Below are positions 19,259 through 29,510 of a stretch of DNA of 64,000 nucleotides, in pieces. Positions within the stretch are counted from its first letter, which is position 1; each line of letters starts with the position of its first letter. The stretch spans positions 62,001-126,000 of the forward strand of contig JAAXXI010000001.1 in the NCBI GenBank assembly GCA_013334565.1, read 5' to 3'. The position numbers were made by a program, and so were the translations under genes. The notes under the pieces were generated by a model that was given only the letters and a program-made list of their open reading frames with translations, ran no database searches and was not told the DNA's origin. The DNA comes from Chlorobiaceae bacterium (GTDB taxonomy: Bacteria > Bacteroidota > Chlorobiia > Chlorobiales > Chlorobiaceae).

Positions 19259-19660
19259 TTAAAAGAAGTCTTTGACGTGCGCGATGAACTGGTTTTCCGT
19301 CACCCTGTCGAGGGTTTCTACTCCCCGTACCTTACCCTGAAATGTTCCGGCATGCTCCATCTCTTTTGCAAGTTCGGTCTTCGCTTCACCCGGCCCGAAA
19401 ATAACAATGGCATCGGAATCACCGAGAATCTTGATGATATTTTTGTAGAACGCGTGGTACTGATGTTTGCGGCGTTCTTCGTCGGCATGTTCGCTCGCTA
19501 CGGACTGGGCTACGGAGGTGCCGGATGATTTCCACCCGCCGGATGGCTTGAAATGGCTGTCCGCGCCCGATTCGATATGCAGCACCGTGGTTTCATCCCC
19601 TTCGATCGAAACCACCAGGGCATCCCTGTGATCAATCCAAATACCTGTGTTTTTTTTCAT
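19259..19660 (-). CDS. Bacterial eRF1-like/host-attachment-type protein (133 aa)
   Basis: MKKNTGIWIDHRDALVVSI...YKNIIKILGDSDAIVIFGPGEAKTELAKEM; resembles baeRF/Pelota C-terminal-like small proteins. Confidence 0.6.
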   Translation of the reverse strand: MKKNTGIWIDHRDALVVSIEGDETTVLHIESGADSHFKPSGGWKSSGTSVAQSVASEHADEERRKHQYHAFYKNIIKILGDSDAIVIFGPGEAKTELAKEMEHAGTFQGKVRGVETLDRVTENQFIAHVKDFF

Positions 19661-19874: not shown

Positions 19875-21743
19875 ATGCCGGAAAATGAATTGTTCAGACT
19901 GGAGGAATTTGAAAACGCGGTATATACCCGCAAATATGAACTTGCCGGAAAATTATTATTACGATTGCTGTTGCTGATCGATCAAAACTATGGCGAGTTC
20001 GCTCGTGAGATTCAGTTTAAAAACAACAGCCATCAGATTGAAATAGAGCAAGTTATCGATCATTTCTTCGGCAGGTTGGCGGCAGCGATCACCTCACTTT
20101 TTGCCGATCCGGATTTCCAGTTGAGCGAAAGCGGTTTTTATCAGTTGATGGCCTATCAGCGATGGCTTGATGTGGTTTTTTCCCGAACTCCGATGAAGAA
20201 TGCCGACCATGTCATCTACAGCCTGAACAACCTCGGCTGGGACAGCCCGACGATCCAGTGGAATGCGCGGGATATTTTGAAAATGGCACTGATCATGCTG
20301 CCGGATTCAGGGGTACCGATCGATCTGAATATGGTCTGGAAATCGAGCCCCCTGCTTGCTGTCAACATAGCCCTTGCCTGGGTGACACCTCGTTTCCTTG
20401 GAACAGAAACGGCCCATAAAAGAAGGGATTTCGCCCTGACGTGGCTACCGGAGCATCTTGAGAAATTAAAAATGGAAGAACTGCTCCAGTTGCCTCTCAA
20501 TAAATTGCATGACGTCTATATGCATTGCAGTTATTCTTCCCGAAAAAATAAACACGATATCAAGAAAGCCATCCACCTGATATGCCATAAACTGATTGAT
20601 TATTGCGGCGTGAAAGAGATTTCCGGGAACACATGCAAAGATATTCCTCTTGTAAGCGGAAAACCTGTCATGGTCGTCCTCCTGGAGTGGTTCAATACAA
20701 ATCACTCTGTATTTAGGACACATTCAAGGTCTCTGCTTGCGATGAAAAACAAATTCTATCTGATCGGTATCGGGGATGACAAATGTGTGGATCAAGGCGG
20801 ACGGGATGTGTTCGATGAATTCGTTACGCTTAAGCCAGGGACTTTTCTTGACCAGTTGAAGTTTGTCAAGGAAATTATCGATACAAGAGGAGCAAATGTA
20901 CTCTATATGCCATCGGTAGGAATGCAGCTCATCACGATTTTCACTTCGAGCATTCGGCTCGCACCTGTTCAGTTTACTGCATTGGGCCACGGAGCGTCAA
21001 CACAATCGCCATGGGTGGATTATTTTGCTGTCGATGAAGATTATATCGGTGAAAAAACGACATTTTCGGAAAAAATCATTGCCTTGCCCGTAGATGCCAT
21101 GCCATTTATCAACTCCAGTTCGCTCGATGCATCTGAAATAAAACCGTTAAGCCATGCATGGAATGGAAAGGTAAAAATTGCGGTGGCGGCGACGGTAATG
21201 AAACTCAATCCTGAATTTTTAAGCGCTTGCCGGCAGATAACCGAACGGGCAAAAACAAAAATCGAGTTTCATTTTTTTGTCGGCGGATGCACCGGGCTTG
21301 TCTGGCCGCTGGTTCAGCAATTCATTTCCGGCTACCTTCCGGACAAATCGATCATCTACAGACATCTGCCGTATCCTGAATACATGCGGAAGTTGAATCA
21401 ATGCGAGATGTTCATCACGCCGTTTCCGTACGGAAACATGAACGGCATTGCCGATGCCGCAATTTGCGGACTTGTCGGTGTCTGCAAAAGCGGCCCTCAT
21501 GTGCATGAACATATCGATGCAGGCCTTTTTAAAAGGCTCGGACTGCCGAAATGGACAATAGCGAAATCAGTAGAGAAGTATATCGAGGCGGCTGTTCGCA
21601 TGGCGGATGTTCATGAAGAACGAGTAAAACTCCAGAGACAACTGATCAGCGGCAACAACCTGAACAACTTGTATGAAGGCCGTCCGGAGATACTGGGCGA
21701 GGAAATTCTGAAAATACTCACAGACGGCAGTACTTCAGGCTGA
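19875..21743 (+). CDS. HMW1C/NGT-type UDP-hexose:protein asparagine N-glycosyltransferase (GT41 family)
   Basis: 622 aa, collinear with the HMW1C/ApNGT family from memory: DVYMHCSYSSRKNKHDIKKA, GKPVMVVLLEWFNTNHSVFRTHS, FYLIGIGDDKCVDQGGRDVFDEF, LYMPSVGMQLITIFTSSIRLAPVQFTALGHGASTQS, AATVMKLNPEF, TPFPYGNMNGIADAAICGLVGVCKSGPHVHEHIDAGLFKRLGLP. Confidence 0.92.
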   Translation: MPENELFRLEEFENAVYTRKYELAGKLLLRLLLLIDQNYGEFAREIQFKNNSHQIEIEQVIDHFFGRLAAAITSLFADPDFQLSESGFYQLMAYQRWLDVVFSRTPMKNADHVIYSLNNLGWDSPTIQWNARDILKMALIMLPDSGVPIDLNMVWKSSPLLAVNIALAWVTPRFLGTETAHKRRDFALTWLPEHLEKLKMEELLQLPLNKLHDVYMHCSYSSRKNKHDIKKAIHLICHKLIDYCGVKEISGNTCKDIPLVSGKPVMVVLLEWFNTNHSVFRTHSRSLLAMKNKFYLIGIGDDKCVDQGGRDVFDEFVTLKPGTFLDQLKFVKEIIDTRGANVLYMPSVGMQLITIFTSSIRLAPVQFTALGHGASTQSPWVDYFAVDEDYIGEKTTFSEKIIALPVDAMPFINSSSLDASEIKPLSHAWNGKVKIAVAATVMKLNPEFLSACRQITERAKTKIEFHFFVGGCTGLVWPLVQQFISGYLPDKSIIYRHLPYPEYMRKLNQCEMFITPFPYGNMNGIADAAICGLVGVCKSGPHVHEHIDAGLFKRLGLPKWTIAKSVEKYIEAAVRMADVHEERVKLQRQLISGNNLNNLYEGRPEILGEEILKILTDGSTSG

Positions 21744-21808
21744 GCGAACTGCCATCCCTGCCAGATAATGGATAAGATATTTCGATTCAACCCTTTAATA
21801 AACGAAAT

Positions 21809-23344
21809 ATGTCAGACTGGACATCAGGTTATATGGCCGATATCGATTACACGTTCGGTTATTATGCCGAACTCAATCCGTTCAGGCTCAAACTTGCCTT
21901 TCTGAATGCCGGCCTTGTTTTTCCTGAAACCGGGACGGCATGCGAACTTGGTTACGGCCAGGGGCTCTGTGTAAACATTCATGCTGCAGGTAGCCTTGTG
22001 GACTGGTATGGAACCGATTTCAATCCTTCACAGGCTGCTTTTGCGGAAGAGATTGCCTCGAAGTCCGGAGCAAATCTTAAACTTTACGACGAGGCATTCG
22101 ATGATTTTTGCTCGCGCAAGGACCTCCCGGATTTTGATTATATCGGCTTACATGGCATCTGGAGCTGGATTTCGGACGAAAACCGGCATGTCATTGTTGA
22201 TTTTATCAGAAGAAAATTGAAAGTAGGCGGTGTTCTCTATATCAGTTACAATACCATGCCGGGATGGGCGGCATTTGCGCCTATCCGCCATCTGATGAAC
22301 CTGCATGCCGAAATTATCGGGGCCGACGGAAAAGGAATTTTAAATCGTGTTGACAGTGCAATCGATTTTACAGAAAAACTCCTTGCAACCAATCCGCTTT
22401 ACTCGAGAGTGAACCCTCAGATTCCGGAGCGGATTAAGAACCTGACGGGACAGAACCGCCAATACCTTGCCCACGAGTATTTCAACAAGCATTGGTATCC
22501 CATGCATTTTTCAACCATGGCAGATTGGCTGGAACCGGCAAAACTGCAGTATGCCGTTTCGGCAAATTTTCTCGATCATATCGATATGCTCCACATGAGT
22601 ATGGATCAGCAGGCCTTTATCAATGGTATTCCTGATCCGATATTGCGCCAGAGTGTCAGGGATTTCATGGTGAATCAGCAGTTCAGGAAAGACTACTGGG
22701 TAAAAGGGGCAAGGAGATTGACCTCACTCGAGCAAGCAGAAACCCTGCGCGGTCTCAAGGTGATCCTGACGGGCCATCGACCCGATATAGAAATGAAAGT
22801 TACCGGAGCCCTCGGGGAAGCGTCCTTGAACGAAGAGATTTACAATCCTATTCTTGATGCACTATCGGAGAATACGCCGAAAGAAGTTGCTCAGCTTGAA
22901 ATGGAGCTCCAGTCTAAAGGAATTGGTTTGGCGAAGATATTATTGGCATTGGTGCTGTTTTCCGGCACGGGACATCTTGAGCTGGTCCAGGATGAAGAAT
23001 CCATTGCCGAAGCGAAGAAAACCGCACACAAAATCAACACATATCTCATGACCAAGGCAAGGGGCTCGAACGACATCAACTTCCTTTCCAGTCCTGTAAC
23101 GGGGGGAGGTGTTCATGTCGGACGGATACAGCAGTTGTTTCTTCTTGCTCTCATTGAAGGGAAGGATAGTCCTGAAGAGTGGGCCCGGAAGGCATGGGAA
23201 GCACTCCGTGTTCAGGACCAGAAACTTATCAGGGACGGAAAAGTTCTTGAGTCATCCGAAGAAAACCTGTCAGAGCTCCTGGAACAGGCAAGGATATTTA
23301 AAACGAAGAGACTGCCGATTTTAAAAACATTGCAGGTGATCTGA
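21809..23344 (+). CDS. SAM-dependent methyltransferase with methyltransferase-regulatory (PF10119-like) region, PKMT-like
   Basis: DYTFGYYAELNPFRLKLAFLNAG, CELGYGQGLCVNIHAA (SAM motif I), FDYIGLHGIWSWISDENRHVIVDFIRRKLKVGGVLYISYNTMPGWAAFAPIRHLM. Confidence 0.85.
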   Translation: MSDWTSGYMADIDYTFGYYAELNPFRLKLAFLNAGLVFPETGTACELGYGQGLCVNIHAAGSLVDWYGTDFNPSQAAFAEEIASKSGANLKLYDEAFDDFCSRKDLPDFDYIGLHGIWSWISDENRHVIVDFIRRKLKVGGVLYISYNTMPGWAAFAPIRHLMNLHAEIIGADGKGILNRVDSAIDFTEKLLATNPLYSRVNPQIPERIKNLTGQNRQYLAHEYFNKHWYPMHFSTMADWLEPAKLQYAVSANFLDHIDMLHMSMDQQAFINGIPDPILRQSVRDFMVNQQFRKDYWVKGARRLTSLEQAETLRGLKVILTGHRPDIEMKVTGALGEASLNEEIYNPILDALSENTPKEVAQLEMELQSKGIGLAKILLALVLFSGTGHLELVQDEESIAEAKKTAHKINTYLMTKARGSNDINFLSSPVTGGGVHVGRIQQLFLLALIEGKDSPEEWARKAWEALRVQDQKLIRDGKVLESSEENLSELLEQARIFKTKRLPILKTLQVI

Positions 23345-23364
23345 AACAATTATAAAAATGGACA

Positions 23365-23408
23365 AAACAGAAAGGGCGGTCACCTTTGAGGAACCGCCCT
23401 TTCTGTTT
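23365..23408. terminator. Bidirectional hairpin between convergent methyltransferase and autotransporter genes
   Basis: Perfect 16-bp stem aaacagaaagggcggt / accgccctttctgttt with 12-nt loop. Confidence 0.85.
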
Positions 23409-23425
23409 GTTAACCGGAGAGACTC

Positions 23426-26400
23426 TTAGAAGGCTTTCCGAATACCTACGTTCAGTCTGTAATTGTAGGAATCGAGGTTATCCAGACCATAGATCGCTTC
23501 TGCCTTCAGGAAGTAGCTGAGGTTGTTCTTTTCCGAAATCCTCCGGCTGATGCCGATAGCTCCACCGAGGAAGAGTGTTTCCGGTTTGGACGACAGCGTA
23601 ACAGGCTCTTTGGTGTCAGCGTAATACGCATTGTTCATGGAGTAGGTTACGCGGTTAGACTCGCTGAAGTCCTTGATCAGGTTGATTTCAAAGAACGGAT
23701 TGAAATCAAAATCGCAGGACTTGAACATGCCGGTGATTCCCAGCCTGCCTTGCAGCGCATCGTGCTCTTCGATGTTCACATCGCCCGTAAGTATCGGCGT
23801 AGTGATTCCGAGCCCATCGGTGTGCTGGTAAACCAGCTGGGCCTGTGGCTGAAGGGTGAAGCATTTGCCTATCGGTATGCCAACTCCGACTTCAAGAGAG
23901 CCGAGGTAACTCCACATATCGACATCGTGTTTCGGATAGGTCAGATAGTCGATATCGATATTGTGGCTGGTCGCCTGGGCGACACCCTCGATATAGAACT
24001 TGTCGGGATTGTGAACGGTAACATACGCACCAACCGAGTAAGCCGTATCGTTGAGTTTGCCGGCCAGGTCGCTTCTCAGGCCTGCGACATCCGCTTCGTT
24101 ATAGCCGATACCCGCATACAGGCCGATGTTGTGCCGTGTATCTTTTCCTCCGGCTGCGATGTCGGCACCGATCTGCATGCCGCCGCTGTATCCTTTGAGC
24201 TCGGTTGCTGCGTCACCGCTCATGCCGAGGCGGTATTTGCTGCCGTAACCCCTTACCCAGAATGCGGATTTTTCGGCATTTTTATCGGCAAACCAGGTAT
24301 AGGTGCGGCGTTCGTGGAAACGCGGTATCGATTCATACCCGAGCTTCTCGACAAACGGAGTCACAGCCTGCAGCACGGCGGCCTCCTCACGGTATCCGGG
24401 AGACTGCAGGTACCAGTCATGATCCGAACCTTCGACAAGGTTAACCGCAAATGGGCCGAAGTCGTCAGGGTTGCCAAGAAGAAATGCGTTGGATGAAACA
24501 GGATTGTTTGTATCGATAATCTTGATTCCATTTCCAGCCGTTACTGCTACAGGGTTTACGACGTTATTGACGAATACTTTTGTCGGACCTGATGCCGTGC
24601 CGTTGATGGTAACAAGCTCCGCTGATGTATTACCGCTTGTACTGAGATCGGCATCAAGCAAGAGGACCCCTGTACCGCTATAATTACCGGTGACCGTCAA
24701 AGTATCGTTTACCTCATCGTCAAGCAGTGAATACGTTCCATTATTGACCATATTGCCGGCAATGGTGACGTCTACCGGAGAATGGCCACCTCCATAGACG
24801 AACGAACCGGGATCGATATTGAATTCAACAAGACCGGAAGTCGACGTAATATTCATTTTGCCGCGGTTATCGATGATATCAACAATTCCATCACCGAGAT
24901 CGACTTTGGAGTTGTTGGTGACCCAGATGTTCTCCCATTCGACGACCTTTGTGCCAACCATACCGGTCCAGCCGTCAAATTTCAGCAGGTCGCCAGTCGT
25001 CATATTGACTGGAAGGGAAGCAATGTCGTCTCTCGTAGACTCGGAGCCAATACTGTAACCGCCGGATAATGTCGGGACTGTGCTTATAATCGCGTTGTCC
25101 TTGATTACCATGGTATCGTTGCCTTGCCCAAGGTAGACGTTGCCGATAAGCTGGGCATTTTCTTCAACGGTGATGTTGTCTTTATTGGGATTTGTAAAAA
25201 GAGCATAGCCGCCGAAGCCATCGAACCTGCCTGAACGGATAGCATAACCGAGATCGGTTTCATTTTTATCGGTGCCGGATACAATCGCATTGCCGGAAAT
25301 GTCAAGATCCATCTGGCCATCGGCAAGAATACCCGCCGCCGCACCGTTCGCTGTCGCGCTGATGTTCCCTGTAATGATGAGCGGCGTATAGCTCGTCGTT
25401 CCAGAGTCATATGTGCCGATATGATCTCCCGCGGCAATACCGGCGGCGGAATGTCCTCCGGCTTCCGCGATCACCGTTCCGGACAGGATGCCTCCGATTT
25501 TCAGGTCATCCCCGGCATAAAGCCCATAGGCAGAATTGTGCGTACCGTTGGCTACCGTAACACTGGCAAAATCGTAACCGGCTTGTGCAGTAACATTGCC
25601 GGAGAGATCACCGCCTATGATGATATCGTCATTACCATCGGTAAAGAGTCCATAAGCGTTATCATCACCAGCCTGGGCTGTAATGTTACCCGACAGATTG
25701 TTATTAATGTTAATGTCATGTTGATCCGCATAGAGACCGTAGGCTCCATCACCTCCAGCCTGGGCTTTAACCGCTCCGGAAAGATTACCATTGATATTCA
25801 GGTCATAGCCGGCATGCAACCCGTAGGCAGTATTGAAATTACCGTTGACTACCTTACCATTGGCAAAATCGTACCCGGCCTGGGCGGTTATCGTACCGTT
25901 GAGATTGCCACCAATGGTGATATCGTCATTACCATCTGTAAAGAGTCCATAAGCTTCACCAGACCCACCCTGTGCAGTAACATTGCCTGAGAGACTGCCT
26001 GTGATGTTTATGTTCCCGCCAGAAGCGTACAGACCGTAGACATCATCACCTCCAGCCTGGGCTTTAACCGTTCCGGAAAGATTGCCATTGATGTTCAGGT
26101 TATCACCAGCACGAAAACCGTAGGCGTCATCGTTACTTCCGTTAACGACGGTTTTAGTCGTGAAATTATACCCAGCCTGAGCGTTAACATTTCCGAGGAA
26201 ATCGCCATTGACGGTAATGTCATCATTTAAAGTAAAGAGACCATATGCACCATCATCTCCTGCCTGGGCGGTAACCGTTCCATTGAACACATTGCCAGCA
26301 GTACCAATAGTTATATGATCTTCGGCATAGAGTCCGTAAGCTTCAACTCCTCCAGCCTGCGCGGTAACTGTCCCGGAAAGGGTTCCTCCTATGGACAGGT

Positions 26401-27241
26401 CATTTTTGCTGGCGCGCAGTCCATATGCGTTATTGTGGTCACCGTTTACAACAATATTGTTCAGGAAGTCATAACCTGCCTGAGCAGTAACAGAACCGGC
26501 GAGATCTCCGGTTATTTTAAGGTCATTTGCCCCTCGCAAACCATAAGCTTCGTCATCGCCAGCCTGAGCAGTAACGGTTCCGGAAAGGGTTCCATTGATA
26601 TTTAGATTTTTGCCTGTATTGTAGGCGCGTATGCCATAGGCCTCATCGTTGTAAGCTTGTGCGATAACGGAGCCAGTCAGATTTCCGTTAATAGTGAGGT
26701 TATCTTTAGCGAAGAGGCCGTATGCCTGGTTATTGGATGCAACAGCTGTAAAAGTGCCATTGATATCGTTGCTCAGTAAACCAGAACCGGTTGCATAAAA
26801 ACTGTTGATAGTCAAGTTGTTCGTACCATAAACGGCTGTAACATTATTGCCTGTACCTGTTGCGTCAACAGAAAATCCGTTATCTAACGTAAGTACTGGG
26901 CTATTAATTGTTCTCAGTAAACTGGTTCCTGCAACGCTCGTGCTCGAGATGGTAACAGGGTAGCCATCCGTTGTTTCAAAAATTACACTTTGATTGACAG
27001 TTACAATATCTGAGGGGTTACTTGTCTGAATCTTAAATGGATTCGTTGTGTTGCCAAAAAAAATTGTACTGGTATCACTATCTCCATTGGCACTTGTAAT
27101 TGCACTTTGAATACTGTTTGAACCTGTTGGGGTTGTGGTTGTTACATCATAAACAAAGGCAGAAGGAATACTTTCCGCATTCGCCTGGCCGGCACCAAGT
27201 GCGACAAATAAAGCTACAAGAGCTATGTTTCTCTTTTTCAT
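23426..27241 (-). CDS. Autotransporter (type Va) adhesin-like protein with repeat beta-helix passenger
   Basis: Signal peptide MKKRNIALVALFVALGAGQANA; repeated AYGLxA..NLSGxVTAQAG units; C-terminal autotransporter barrel (FWVRGYGSKYRLG... ending NYRLNVGIRKAF, terminal F). Confidence 0.92.
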   Translation of the reverse strand: MKKRNIALVALFVALGAGQANAESIPSAFVYDVTTTTPTGSNSIQSAITSANGDSDTSTIFFGNTTNPFKIQTSNPSDIVTVNQSVIFETTDGYPVTISSTSVAGTSLLRTINSPVLTLDNGFSVDATGTGNNVTAVYGTNNLTINSFYATGSGLLSNDINGTFTAVASNNQAYGLFAKDNLTINGNLTGSVIAQAYNDEAYGIRAYNTGKNLNINGTLSGTVTAQAGDDEAYGLRGANDLKITGDLAGSVTAQAGYDFLNNIVVNGDHNNAYGLRASKNDLSIGGTLSGTVTAQAGGVEAYGLYAEDHITIGTAGNVFNGTVTAQAGDDGAYGLFTLNDDITVNGDFLGNVNAQAGYNFTTKTVVNGSNDDAYGFRAGDNLNINGNLSGTVKAQAGGDDVYGLYASGGNINITGSLSGNVTAQGGSGEAYGLFTDGNDDITIGGNLNGTITAQAGYDFANGKVVNGNFNTAYGLHAGYDLNINGNLSGAVKAQAGGDGAYGLYADQHDININNNLSGNITAQAGDDNAYGLFTDGNDDIIIGGDLSGNVTAQAGYDFASVTVANGTHNSAYGLYAGDDLKIGGILSGTVIAEAGGHSAAGIAAGDHIGTYDSGTTSYTPLIITGNISATANGAAAGILADGQMDLDISGNAIVSGTDKNETDLGYAIRSGRFDGFGGYALFTNPNKDNITVEENAQLIGNVYLGQGNDTMVIKDNAIISTVPTLSGGYSIGSESTRDDIASLPVNMTTGDLLKFDGWTGMVGTKVVEWENIWVTNNSKVDLGDGIVDIIDNRGKMNITSTSGLVEFNIDPGSFVYGGGHSPVDVTIAGNMVNNGTYSLLDDEVNDTLTVTGNYSGTGVLLLDADLSTSGNTSAELVTINGTASGPTKVFVNNVVNPVAVTAGNGIKIIDTNNPVSSNAFLLGNPDDFGPFAVNLVEGSDHDWYLQSPGYREEAAVLQAVTPFVEKLGYESIPRFHERRTYTWFADKNAEKSAFWVRGYGSKYRLGMSGDAATELKGYSGGMQIGADIAAGGKDTRHNIGLYAGIGYNEADVAGLRSDLAGKLNDTAYSVGAYVTVHNPDKFYIEGVAQATSHNIDIDYLTYPKHDVDMWSYLGSLEVGVGIPIGKCFTLQPQAQLVYQHTDGLGITTPILTGDVNIEEHDALQGRLGITGMFKSCDFDFNPFFEINLIKDFSESNRVTYSMNNAYYADTKEPVTLSSKPETLFLGGAIGISRRISEKNNLSYFLKAEAIYGLDNLDSYNYRLNVGIRKAF
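24960..26780 (-). repeat. In-frame coding repeats of the autotransporter passenger (about 13 units in 3-unit super-repeats); bounds approximate
   Basis: Units begin AYGL(R/Y/F)(A/T) and end TAQAG; every third unit carries an AGYDFxxxxVVNGxxN extension. Confidence 0.8.
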
Positions 27242-27644: not shown

Positions 27645-27902
27645 TTACCCTTCTTTCGTGCCTTCGGTAACGGTAAGCTGCGTATCGTTCCTTTTGAGAA
27701 TTCCATCCGCCACCATTTTGTTGACAGCCTGTGTCAGCTGTTCATAGGTTCTGAGCAGTGCCGGAAGTGACATTGCCAATGAACCGATGGGCCGGATGTT
27801 CGCCTTGTCTTTTTCGATCTGTAAGATATTGACAAGGTCAAACCGGACGATGCCGTCGATCATCGTGATATTGGCAATACCGTCTACATACGATGTCATC
27901 AT
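27645..27902 (-). CDS. Conserved-looking small protein of unknown function
   Basis: 85 aa ORF with plausible start and no overlap; MTSYVDGIANITMIDGIVRFDLVNI... Confidence 0.5.
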   Translation of the reverse strand: MMTSYVDGIANITMIDGIVRFDLVNILQIEKDKANIRPIGSLAMSLPALLRTYEQLTQAVNKMVADGILKRNDTQLTVTEGTKEG

Positions 27903-28053: not shown

Positions 28054-28860
28054 TTATCGACCGGGTGGCTGGACTTGCGGCTGGACCTGCTCCTGATTTT
28101 TTTCGGGCTCTTTCTTCACGACAGGTTCGACTTTCCTTTTGTACTTCTTTTCCCAGGCCTGTATTTCCTTCGCCCGGAATGATACACGCCCGGTCCGGGT
28201 CCCGGTGATTTTCAGCAATCGGCCCGGTGCGAGCCGGGTTCCGGGCTCAACCTCGGCCTTGCTGACATCGACCGTCCACAGGACTTTTCTGAATGTTCTG
28301 AGCACAATGACACCCTTCTCTTTATCATATGCCAGGATTTTCCCGCCGAGTCGCCCCTTGCTTGCCTGTGACCATCGGAACTCGTTCGAATAGATCAGGC
28401 GGTGGTACCCACGGACATTTTCGACAAGATAACGGTGAATATATCCCCCGACGTCTACCGTATTGAGGCAGAGGCTGATCAGCAGGCTCGCCAGCAGAGA
28501 GGCAGCGACAACCTTCGCGGTCGTATACCGGTACCCTTTCCTGGTATGGCGGAACCCGTAATAGGCAACAAGGATGAACAGGGCGAGGGCCCCGATCCAG
28601 AGGTAGGGAATGCTCCTGAAGATATCGGCGACGAGGGGCTGCTGTTCGAAATAAAGGGTGATGACTTCATGATCCTCGATGAAGTCGTTGTCGAGGAAGA
28701 CATACATGGCCGTGGCCATGGCGATGCTGCCGGTCAACACGGAAAAGACGGCAAGCGCCCAGAAAGCGAATTGCCTCAGCACGAAGTGCCAGCGGGGAAT
28801 CGGCACCGCCTGTCTTTTTTCGATTTCCTCGAGAATCGATCCTGCTCTGTCCTTGGGCAT
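28054..28860 (-). CDS. Membrane protein, candidate membrane-bound regulator paired with ECF sigma factor
   Basis: Multiple TM segments plus soluble C-terminal beta-rich domain; starts 6 nt after the sigma factor stop. Confidence 0.65.
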   Translation of the reverse strand: MPKDRAGSILEEIEKRQAVPIPRWHFVLRQFAFWALAVFSVLTGSIAMATAMYVFLDNDFIEDHEVITLYFEQQPLVADIFRSIPYLWIGALALFILVAYYGFRHTRKGYRYTTAKVVAASLLASLLISLCLNTVDVGGYIHRYLVENVRGYHRLIYSNEFRWSQASKGRLGGKILAYDKEKGVIVLRTFRKVLWTVDVSKAEVEPGTRLAPGRLLKITGTRTGRVSFRAKEIQAWEKKYKRKVEPVVKKEPEKNQEQVQPQVQPPGR

Positions 28861-28865
28861 GGCTG

Positions 28866-29510
28866 TTATCGGTGATTCTTTTCCAGAGACTCCCTGATTT
28901 TCTTTTTCGCCCTGCTGATCAGGGTGGCAACGGTACCCTGCGGCATCTGCAGGATATCGGAGATTTCCTCGTAACTCTTTTCCTCAAAAAATTTCAGGAC
29001 AATGATGTCGCGATATTTCGCTTCGAGCCGGTTGACGGCCTCCTGAATCTCGGCGGCACTGAACTTCCGGCCATCATCCTGATGAAGGCCGGCATCATCG
29101 ACTATTGTTTCGAACAGGAAGAAATCGGTCTCTTTTTTCAGGACGAAAGGCCGGACCTTTTCCTTCCGGAAGGCACTGACAATCTCGTTATGGGCTATCC
29201 TGTAAATCCATGACGAGAATGGAAGCGACGGATCGTAATCGTTGAGATTGACATAGGTCTTGATGAATATCTCCTGCAGCAGGTCCTGAGCCGTAGAAGC
29301 ATCTTTCCAGCCCATCCGTAAAATGTACCGGAGAAGGGGAGCGTCATAACGCCTGACCAGCGCCGTAAATGACTGTTTGTCCGCGAGAGTGCGGGAAACG
29401 AGTTCCTGGTCGGGTTCCCTGTTTTTTTGGCCGTTCGATGGTTTGCCGTCGACAACCCGCAACAGTGTTGCGAAATGCAGCCAGGAAAAGTAGAATGGCA
29501 CCCTTGTCAT
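28866..29510 (-). CDS. RNA polymerase sigma factor, ECF (sigma-70 family)
   Basis: DLLQEIFIKTYVNLNDYDPSLPFSSWIYRIAHNEIVSAFRK (region 2) and EEKSYEEISDILQMPQGTVATLISRAKKKIRE (region 4). Confidence 0.93.
   Translation of the reverse strand: MTRVPFYFSWLHFATLLRVVDGKPSNGQKNREPDQELVSRTLADKQSFTALVRRYDAPLLRYILRMGWKDASTAQDLLQEIFIKTYVNLNDYDPSLPFSSWIYRIAHNEIVSAFRKEKVRPFVLKKETDFFLFETIVDDAGLHQDDGRKFSAAEIQEAVNRLEAKYRDIIVLKFFEEKSYEEISDILQMPQGTVATLISRAKKKIRESLEKNHR

Follow-up and report, generated by a model that had tools for sequence, protein, structure and literature searches.

N-glycosylation in the cytoplasm and methylation of many lysines, both acting on surface proteins, have each been described in a few systems, mostly in animal-associated bacteria. 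The known HMW1C-like N-glycosyltransferases (NGTs; family GT41), among them HMW1C, ApNGT and AaNGT, come from Pasteurellaceae, Enterobacteriaceae, Neisseriaceae and Burkholderiaceae, and their genes lie in two-partner secretion loci or stand alone (PMC3983070). In the rimO-ngt-agt operon of A. pleuropneumoniae the NGT gene is accompanied by one for another modifying enzyme (PMC5303269), an alpha-6-glucosyltransferase that extends the glycan. The Rickettsia lysine methyltransferases PKMT1 and PKMT2 methylate the autotransporter OmpB, and Acinetobacter KmtA methylates more than 130 lysines of the adhesin AtaA; loss of KmtA results in more surface display and adhesion (PMC11784438). No linked N-glycosyltransferase is described for these enzymes in the literature searched. 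The self-associating type Va autotransporters AIDA-I, TibA and Ag43 are glycosylated as well, by glycosyltransferases of an enzyme family different from the NGTs. Their sugars are O-linked (PMC5303269), TibA has a partner enzyme, TibC (PMC10450907), and no methyltransferase takes part.

The locus presented here combines features of these systems. Its NGT lies beside a type Va autotransporter, predicted to be glycosylated, and a putative protein lysine methyltransferase (PKMT), in a member of the Chlorobiota. Like the A. pleuropneumoniae operon it encodes a second modifying enzyme, here a putative protein methyltransferase rather than a glucosyltransferase, and a putative substrate gene is adjacent. 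That substrate would be an autotransporter, as for PKMT1, PKMT2 and KmtA; unlike in those systems, it is lysine-poor and monomeric. We propose, with a probability of roughly 0.6, that the NGT and the PKMT form a two-enzyme modification module serving this one surface protein.

Organization of the locus

The window is the whole stretch of DNA analysed (64,000 nucleotides), taken from a green sulfur bacterium genome (G000; 2.35 Mb, 91 contigs, about 87% complete) whose nearest named relative is an 'uncultured Chlorobiaceae' MAG. The earlier note had placed the three genes correctly: the NGT reading frame is open, the methyltransferase (MT) gene starts 65 nt past its stop on the same strand, and the autotransporter gene, from its ATG at 27241 to the end of its stop codon at 23426, runs convergent to both on the opposite strand. 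The features are:

19259–19660, minus strand: left-flank conserved 133-aa Chlorobiaceae gene, outside the module; present in 54 of 87 family genomes
19875–21743, plus strand: HMW1C-like cytoplasmic N-glycosyltransferase (NGT, GT41), 622 aa; Pfam HMW1C_N and HMw1_D2, NF049992, PDB 3q3e, active-site map
21809–23344, plus strand: predicted OmpB/KmtA-type protein lysine methyltransferase (PKMT), 511 aa; MethyTransf_Reg, PKMT structures, profile match, D70/H115
23361–23410, no strand: hairpin separating the converging MT and autotransporter genes; −31.3 kcal/mol, z −5.7 relative to shuffled sequence
23426–27241, minus strand: type Va autotransporter, 1271 aa; Pfam AC_1 and Autotransporter, TIGR01414, sequon count, AlphaFold
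27645–27902, minus strand: ORF of 85 aa lying upstream of the autotransporter and matching no family; DNA also at the G040 locus
28054–28860, minus strand: right-flank conserved 268-aa gene, outside the module; near the 133-aa gene in G010, G369 and G083

The hairpin is a probable bidirectional terminator shared by the MT and autotransporter genes; an Rfam search at the locus gave no match. The 85-aa ORF is probably a resident of the locus. Beyond it, an ECF sigma factor gene (28866–29510 of the window) is followed by the 28054–28860 gene, which encodes a conserved membrane protein of unknown family; this pair is present in up to three copies in some Chlorobiaceae genomes.

The two predicted modifying enzymes

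The NGT matches HMW1C_N (E 1e-20) and HMw1_D2 (E 5e-22) in Pfam, is about 40% identical to the A. pleuropneumoniae enzyme, and aligns at full length with PDB entries 3q3e (E 9e-166) and 8p0q (E about 1e-165). An all-alpha N-terminal domain (HMW1C_N, HMw1_D2) and a GT-B catalytic part make up the whole length. The Pfam, NF049992 and PDB matches all agree with the earlier assignment of the 622-aa ORF to the HMW1C/ApNGT family, and by homology the protein is a member of it. Its score against NF049992, the NCBI equivalog for UDP-glucose:protein N-beta-glucosyltransferase, is 666 bits, below the cut-off of 1000 bits; UDP-glucose equivalog status is thus not claimed, and it should not be taken for granted that the sugar used is glucose.

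The active site was mapped from the AaNGT complexes (PMC10507012). The sequon-reading residues R177, H214 and D215 of AaNGT correspond to R173, H212 and D213, and the donor-site residues H276, S277, R280, H370, T437, K440, N520 and D524 to H277, S278, R281, H372, T440, K443, N523 and D527; all are kept, as is the donor-site G369. The earlier note regarded missing catalytic positions as evidence against the family; all catalytic and sequon-reading side chains are present, and three pocket positions differ. These are (AaNGT numbering on the left) Q468 to G471, S495 to L498 and T519 to M522, or Q469G, S496L and T520M in ApNGT numbering, and they set this enzyme apart from the known NGTs. The position of G471 is Gln in 71 of 82 aligned sequences. 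Since mutation of Gln469 to Ala increases the activity of ApNGT (PMC10507012), the glycine need not harm the enzyme. On the basis of family and residues, the enzyme would transfer an N-linked hexose to Asn in N-X-S/T.

The product of 21809–23344 (METHYLTRANSFERASE) carries the MethyTransf_Reg domain (PF10119, E 1.6e-31), and its only close solved structures are Rickettsia PKMT2 (E 2e-15) and PKMT1 (E 9e-15). A profile of 14 homologues matches PKMT1 across positions 11–495 (E 1.1e-47). Residues D70 and H115, invariant in all 14 homologues, correspond to Asp102 and His146 of RpPKMT1, which hold SAM (PMC11784438). The SAM methyltransferase of the earlier note therefore stands, although its generic reading missed the PKMT identity: with a SAM-binding fold bearing MethyTransf_Reg and a full-length PKMT match, the protein is classed here as an OmpB-type protein lysine methyltransferase, a candidate second modifier of a surface protein. 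An AlphaFold model from two sequences reached a pLDDT of 36. By analogy with its characterized relatives, the enzyme would methylate lysines of a surface protein.

Among 398 genomes of the phylum, close MT relatives are found in six, all Chlorobiaceae. The surroundings of homologues agree with a role at surface proteins: one adjoins an autotransporter, with no NGT, in G326 (L054), and in Ruegeria, R. rubrum (Rhodospirillum), Niveispirillum, G206 and G209 they lie beside RTX proteins together with genes for type I secretion. The neighbourhood in G032 contains no obvious surface-protein gene, and the G186 contig ends close to the homologue. OmpB-type methyltransferase genes repeatedly accompany genes for RTX calcium-binding proteins and for type I secretion (L055:8389-15252, L091, L087, L089), which suggests that RTX proteins may be an unexplored substrate class of these enzymes.

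The autotransporter as putative substrate

The autotransporter consists of a signal peptide (MKKRNIALVALFVALGAGQANA), repeats, an AC_1 autochaperone, an Autotransporter barrel (E 6e-30) and a C-terminal Phe. These are the elements of type Va proteins (signal peptide, beta-helix passenger, autochaperone, terminal Phe and a barrel, here predicted to have the usual 12 strands). A single-sequence AlphaFold prediction of residues 129–640 gives a parallel beta-helix (pLDDT 86.5, pTM 0.90), and a fold search with the passenger returned generic beta-helices only (best E 0.02). A type Va protein had been read from this strand before, and the AC_1 and barrel domains, signal peptide and terminal Phe bear this out; the description 'giant' was overstated.

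The passenger (810 aa) contains 27 N-X-S/T sequons compared with 15.1 ± 3.4 in shuffled sequence, while the reversed motif is also common (21). At 3.38 sequons per 100 residues (946-aa stretch) the density is the highest of 21 Chlorobiaceae autotransporters, the others having 0.69–2.66; the L054 row, a wrong ORF, was left out of this comparison. The ratio of observed to expected sequons, 1.88 (about 1.9), is nearly matched in relatives whose genomes lack an NGT (1.87, 1.79 and 1.61), so the enrichment is largely a trait of the beta-helix family. The label 'sequon-rich' holds as a count, and it is weak evidence for glycosylation; as proof of NGT targeting the enrichment was rejected. The second autotransporter (L182) of G246, the other NGT-bearing Chlorobiaceae genome, shows no enrichment (0.99 sequons per 100 residues, z −0.9). 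Lysines are few in the passenger, 17 of 810 residues compared with 234 of 3630 in AtaA.

A single enzyme, most likely the PKMT, might act on the autotransporter, with the NGT acting elsewhere. In many genomes PKMT-family genes are found with those of secreted proteins, the PKMT–autotransporter pair of G326 does without an NGT, and the sister species G040 has an orthologous autotransporter with neither enzyme. This reading fits less well with a passenger poor in lysines and rich in sequons, with the preference of the NGT family for secreted adhesins (PMC3983070), and with two enzyme genes 65 nt apart on one strand that occur together in both species; we regard it as quite improbable.

The main rival to a dedicated module is that the NGT and PKMT act broadly on surface or secreted proteins, the autotransporter being one substrate, maybe a minor one, and its neighbourhood a convenient insertion site. 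The gene for ApNGT, one of the unlinked Pasteurellaceae NGTs, has no adhesin gene next to it, and the enzyme acts on several proteins of the outer membrane (PMC3983070; PMC5303269); the PKMT homologue of G032 lacks an obvious surface-protein neighbour, and other autotransporters share the sequon enrichment. A second type V cargo was, however, not detected in the G000 genome: elsewhere in the roughly 87% of it that is assembled, no other PF03797 protein and no YadA anchor were found, and the best ShlB profile score was 21.5 bits, under the cut-off of 22.7. Other substrates may be missing from a genome of this completeness. No TpsB transporter or TpsA exoprotein, as in HMW1-type two-partner secretion, is adjacent at the locus. 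As the enzymes also landed beside the autotransporter and the order was kept in G246, we consider general modification unlikely, though a good deal less so than the action of a single enzyme.

Distribution and history

A scan of GTDB species genomes yielded 307 NGT loci, of which the best 80 were inspected up to 10 kb on each side, together with five plasmid loci (85 in total). The three-gene order is repeated in one other genome, the Chlorobiaceae MAG G246 (locus L097; 90.5% DNA identity; passenger incomplete), and is absent from the 79 further GTDB loci of the best 80 and from the five plasmid loci. Only in L097 does a PF10119-type enzyme lie near the NGT among the best 80 of 307 loci, a PF10119 match at L160 reaching E 0.002, and the same is true of a type Va barrel related to the one here. 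Of 50 NGT genomes, 16 encode a PF10119 enzyme somewhere, none inside the inspected neighbourhoods, and a strong TpsB match is present in 14 of the 85 loci (weaker in others). Among 398 genomes of the phylum, full-length NGTs are confined to G000 and G246. The trio's co-occurrence in other Chlorobi, which the earlier note put forward as a check, thus extends to one further species. In the literature searched, with subscription papers mostly outside it, there is no report of an HMW1C-like enzyme in Chlorobiota, nor of N-glycosylation and multi-lysine methylation brought together at a single substrate gene.

NGT–methyltransferase pairs on Caballeronia, Paraburkholderia and Cupriavidus plasmids were rejected as parallels, the methyltransferase being longer, different and without a PKMT profile match. 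In these Burkholderiales two-partner-secretion loci the NGT is followed by a methyltransferase-domain protein of about 585–590 aa (L092:11965-15623, L093:9953-13581, L094:9971-13646, L095:9965-13610), the C-terminal half of which resembles a glycosyltransferase; it is possibly a second partner enzyme of the NGT. PLSDB annotation of plasmid NGT genes (e.g. H1, H7, H11) as 'peptide transporter' or 'cobalt ABC transporter permease' looks like misannotation. L100, from Cytophagales MAG19 and filed as Bacteroidota, has an NGT that clusters with those of Comamonadaceae (99% support); this MAG may be mislabelled or contaminated.

In the NGT tree (a quick method, with some long branches) both Chlorobiaceae proteins group with a Burkholderiales MAG (55% identity, SH-aLRT 100) inside the betaproteobacterial NGTs, which indicates that the NGT was acquired, as had been supposed. 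The GC content of the trio (0.46–0.49, compared with 0.55–0.58 in two flanking genes) is low, as the earlier note observed, but this holds for the resident autotransporter just as for the acquired NGT; GC alone is no proof of acquisition and was set aside as a sign of it. Nor does the trio look like a single acquired unit: the autotransporter belongs to a native Chlorobiaceae family, and G040 has its ortholog (barrel 89% identical) at the same locus, beside frdB, with both enzymes absent. In G040 the 133-aa gene is adjoined by the DNA of the 85-aa ORF (L212:7138-7388). Both this DNA and the autotransporter are inverted there, each close to the end of a contig, which suggests that the locus has undergone an inversion. 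The distance between the 133-aa and 268-aa genes is 8.4 kb in G000, about 165 bp in G010 and in G369, and about 1.2 kb in G083; these three lack the cassette between them. The simplest reading of these comparisons, and the most likely, is that a resident autotransporter was joined by two modifiers in the ancestor shared by G000 and G246; loss of the NGT and MT in G040 is the alternative history. Purifying selection acts on all three genes between G000 and G246, with dN/dS of 0.10 for the NGT, 0.21 for the MT and 0.11 for the C-terminal part of the autotransporter.

Each of the two genomes is a draft in many contigs, G246 being a MAG, and the NGT belongs with betaproteobacterial ones, as might be expected if assembly or binning had merged betaproteobacterial and Chlorobiaceae DNA. 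Such an artefact is already close to refuted: in two separate genomes with 9.5% DNA divergence, Chlorobiaceae genes flank the NGT–MT pair to the left and right, and third-position GC is similar in the NGT, MT and autotransporter. In phototrophic consortia a partner related to Comamonadaceae is enclosed by Chlorobium cells, and some of the envelope genes appear to be shared (PMC4053972); that the betaproteobacterial origin of the NGT recalls such consortia is speculation.

A proposed dual-modification module

The two-enzyme module is favoured by the full active site of the NGT, the full-length PKMT match, the order kept in G246, the lack of another PF03797 protein in the G000 genome and the highest passenger sequon density of 21. 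Against it stand the few passenger lysines, the common reversed motif, a sequon ratio like that of NGT-less relatives, the sub-cut-off equivalog score and three pocket substitutions of the NGT, and an arrangement seen in two species only.

In the proposed mechanism the NGT and PKMT, encoded in tandem, would probably be produced together in the cytoplasm, where both would act on the unfolded autotransporter chain ahead of inner-membrane crossing. The NGT would put single hexoses on Asn of N-X-S/T, the PKMT would methylate passenger lysines, and the modified passenger would leave through its own barrel to be displayed as a beta-helix. The likely effect would be to adjust how stable, abundant or sticky the surface protein is in contacts between cells or with surfaces. 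We give even odds to the proposition that a single passenger bears N-linked hexoses as well as methylated lysines, added by a two-gene operon of unrelated sources beside a resident autotransporter of green sulfur bacteria, which would make this a dedicated dual-modification locus outside Pseudomonadota.

What is new is the pairing of an NGT and a PKMT beside an autotransporter, seen in two uncultured green sulfur bacteria among the genomes examined. Since sister genomes hold the autotransporter with and without the enzymes, they offer a natural before-and-after comparison of the effect of modification, and the putative enzyme pair may provide a compact two-enzyme set for producing doubly modified proteins.
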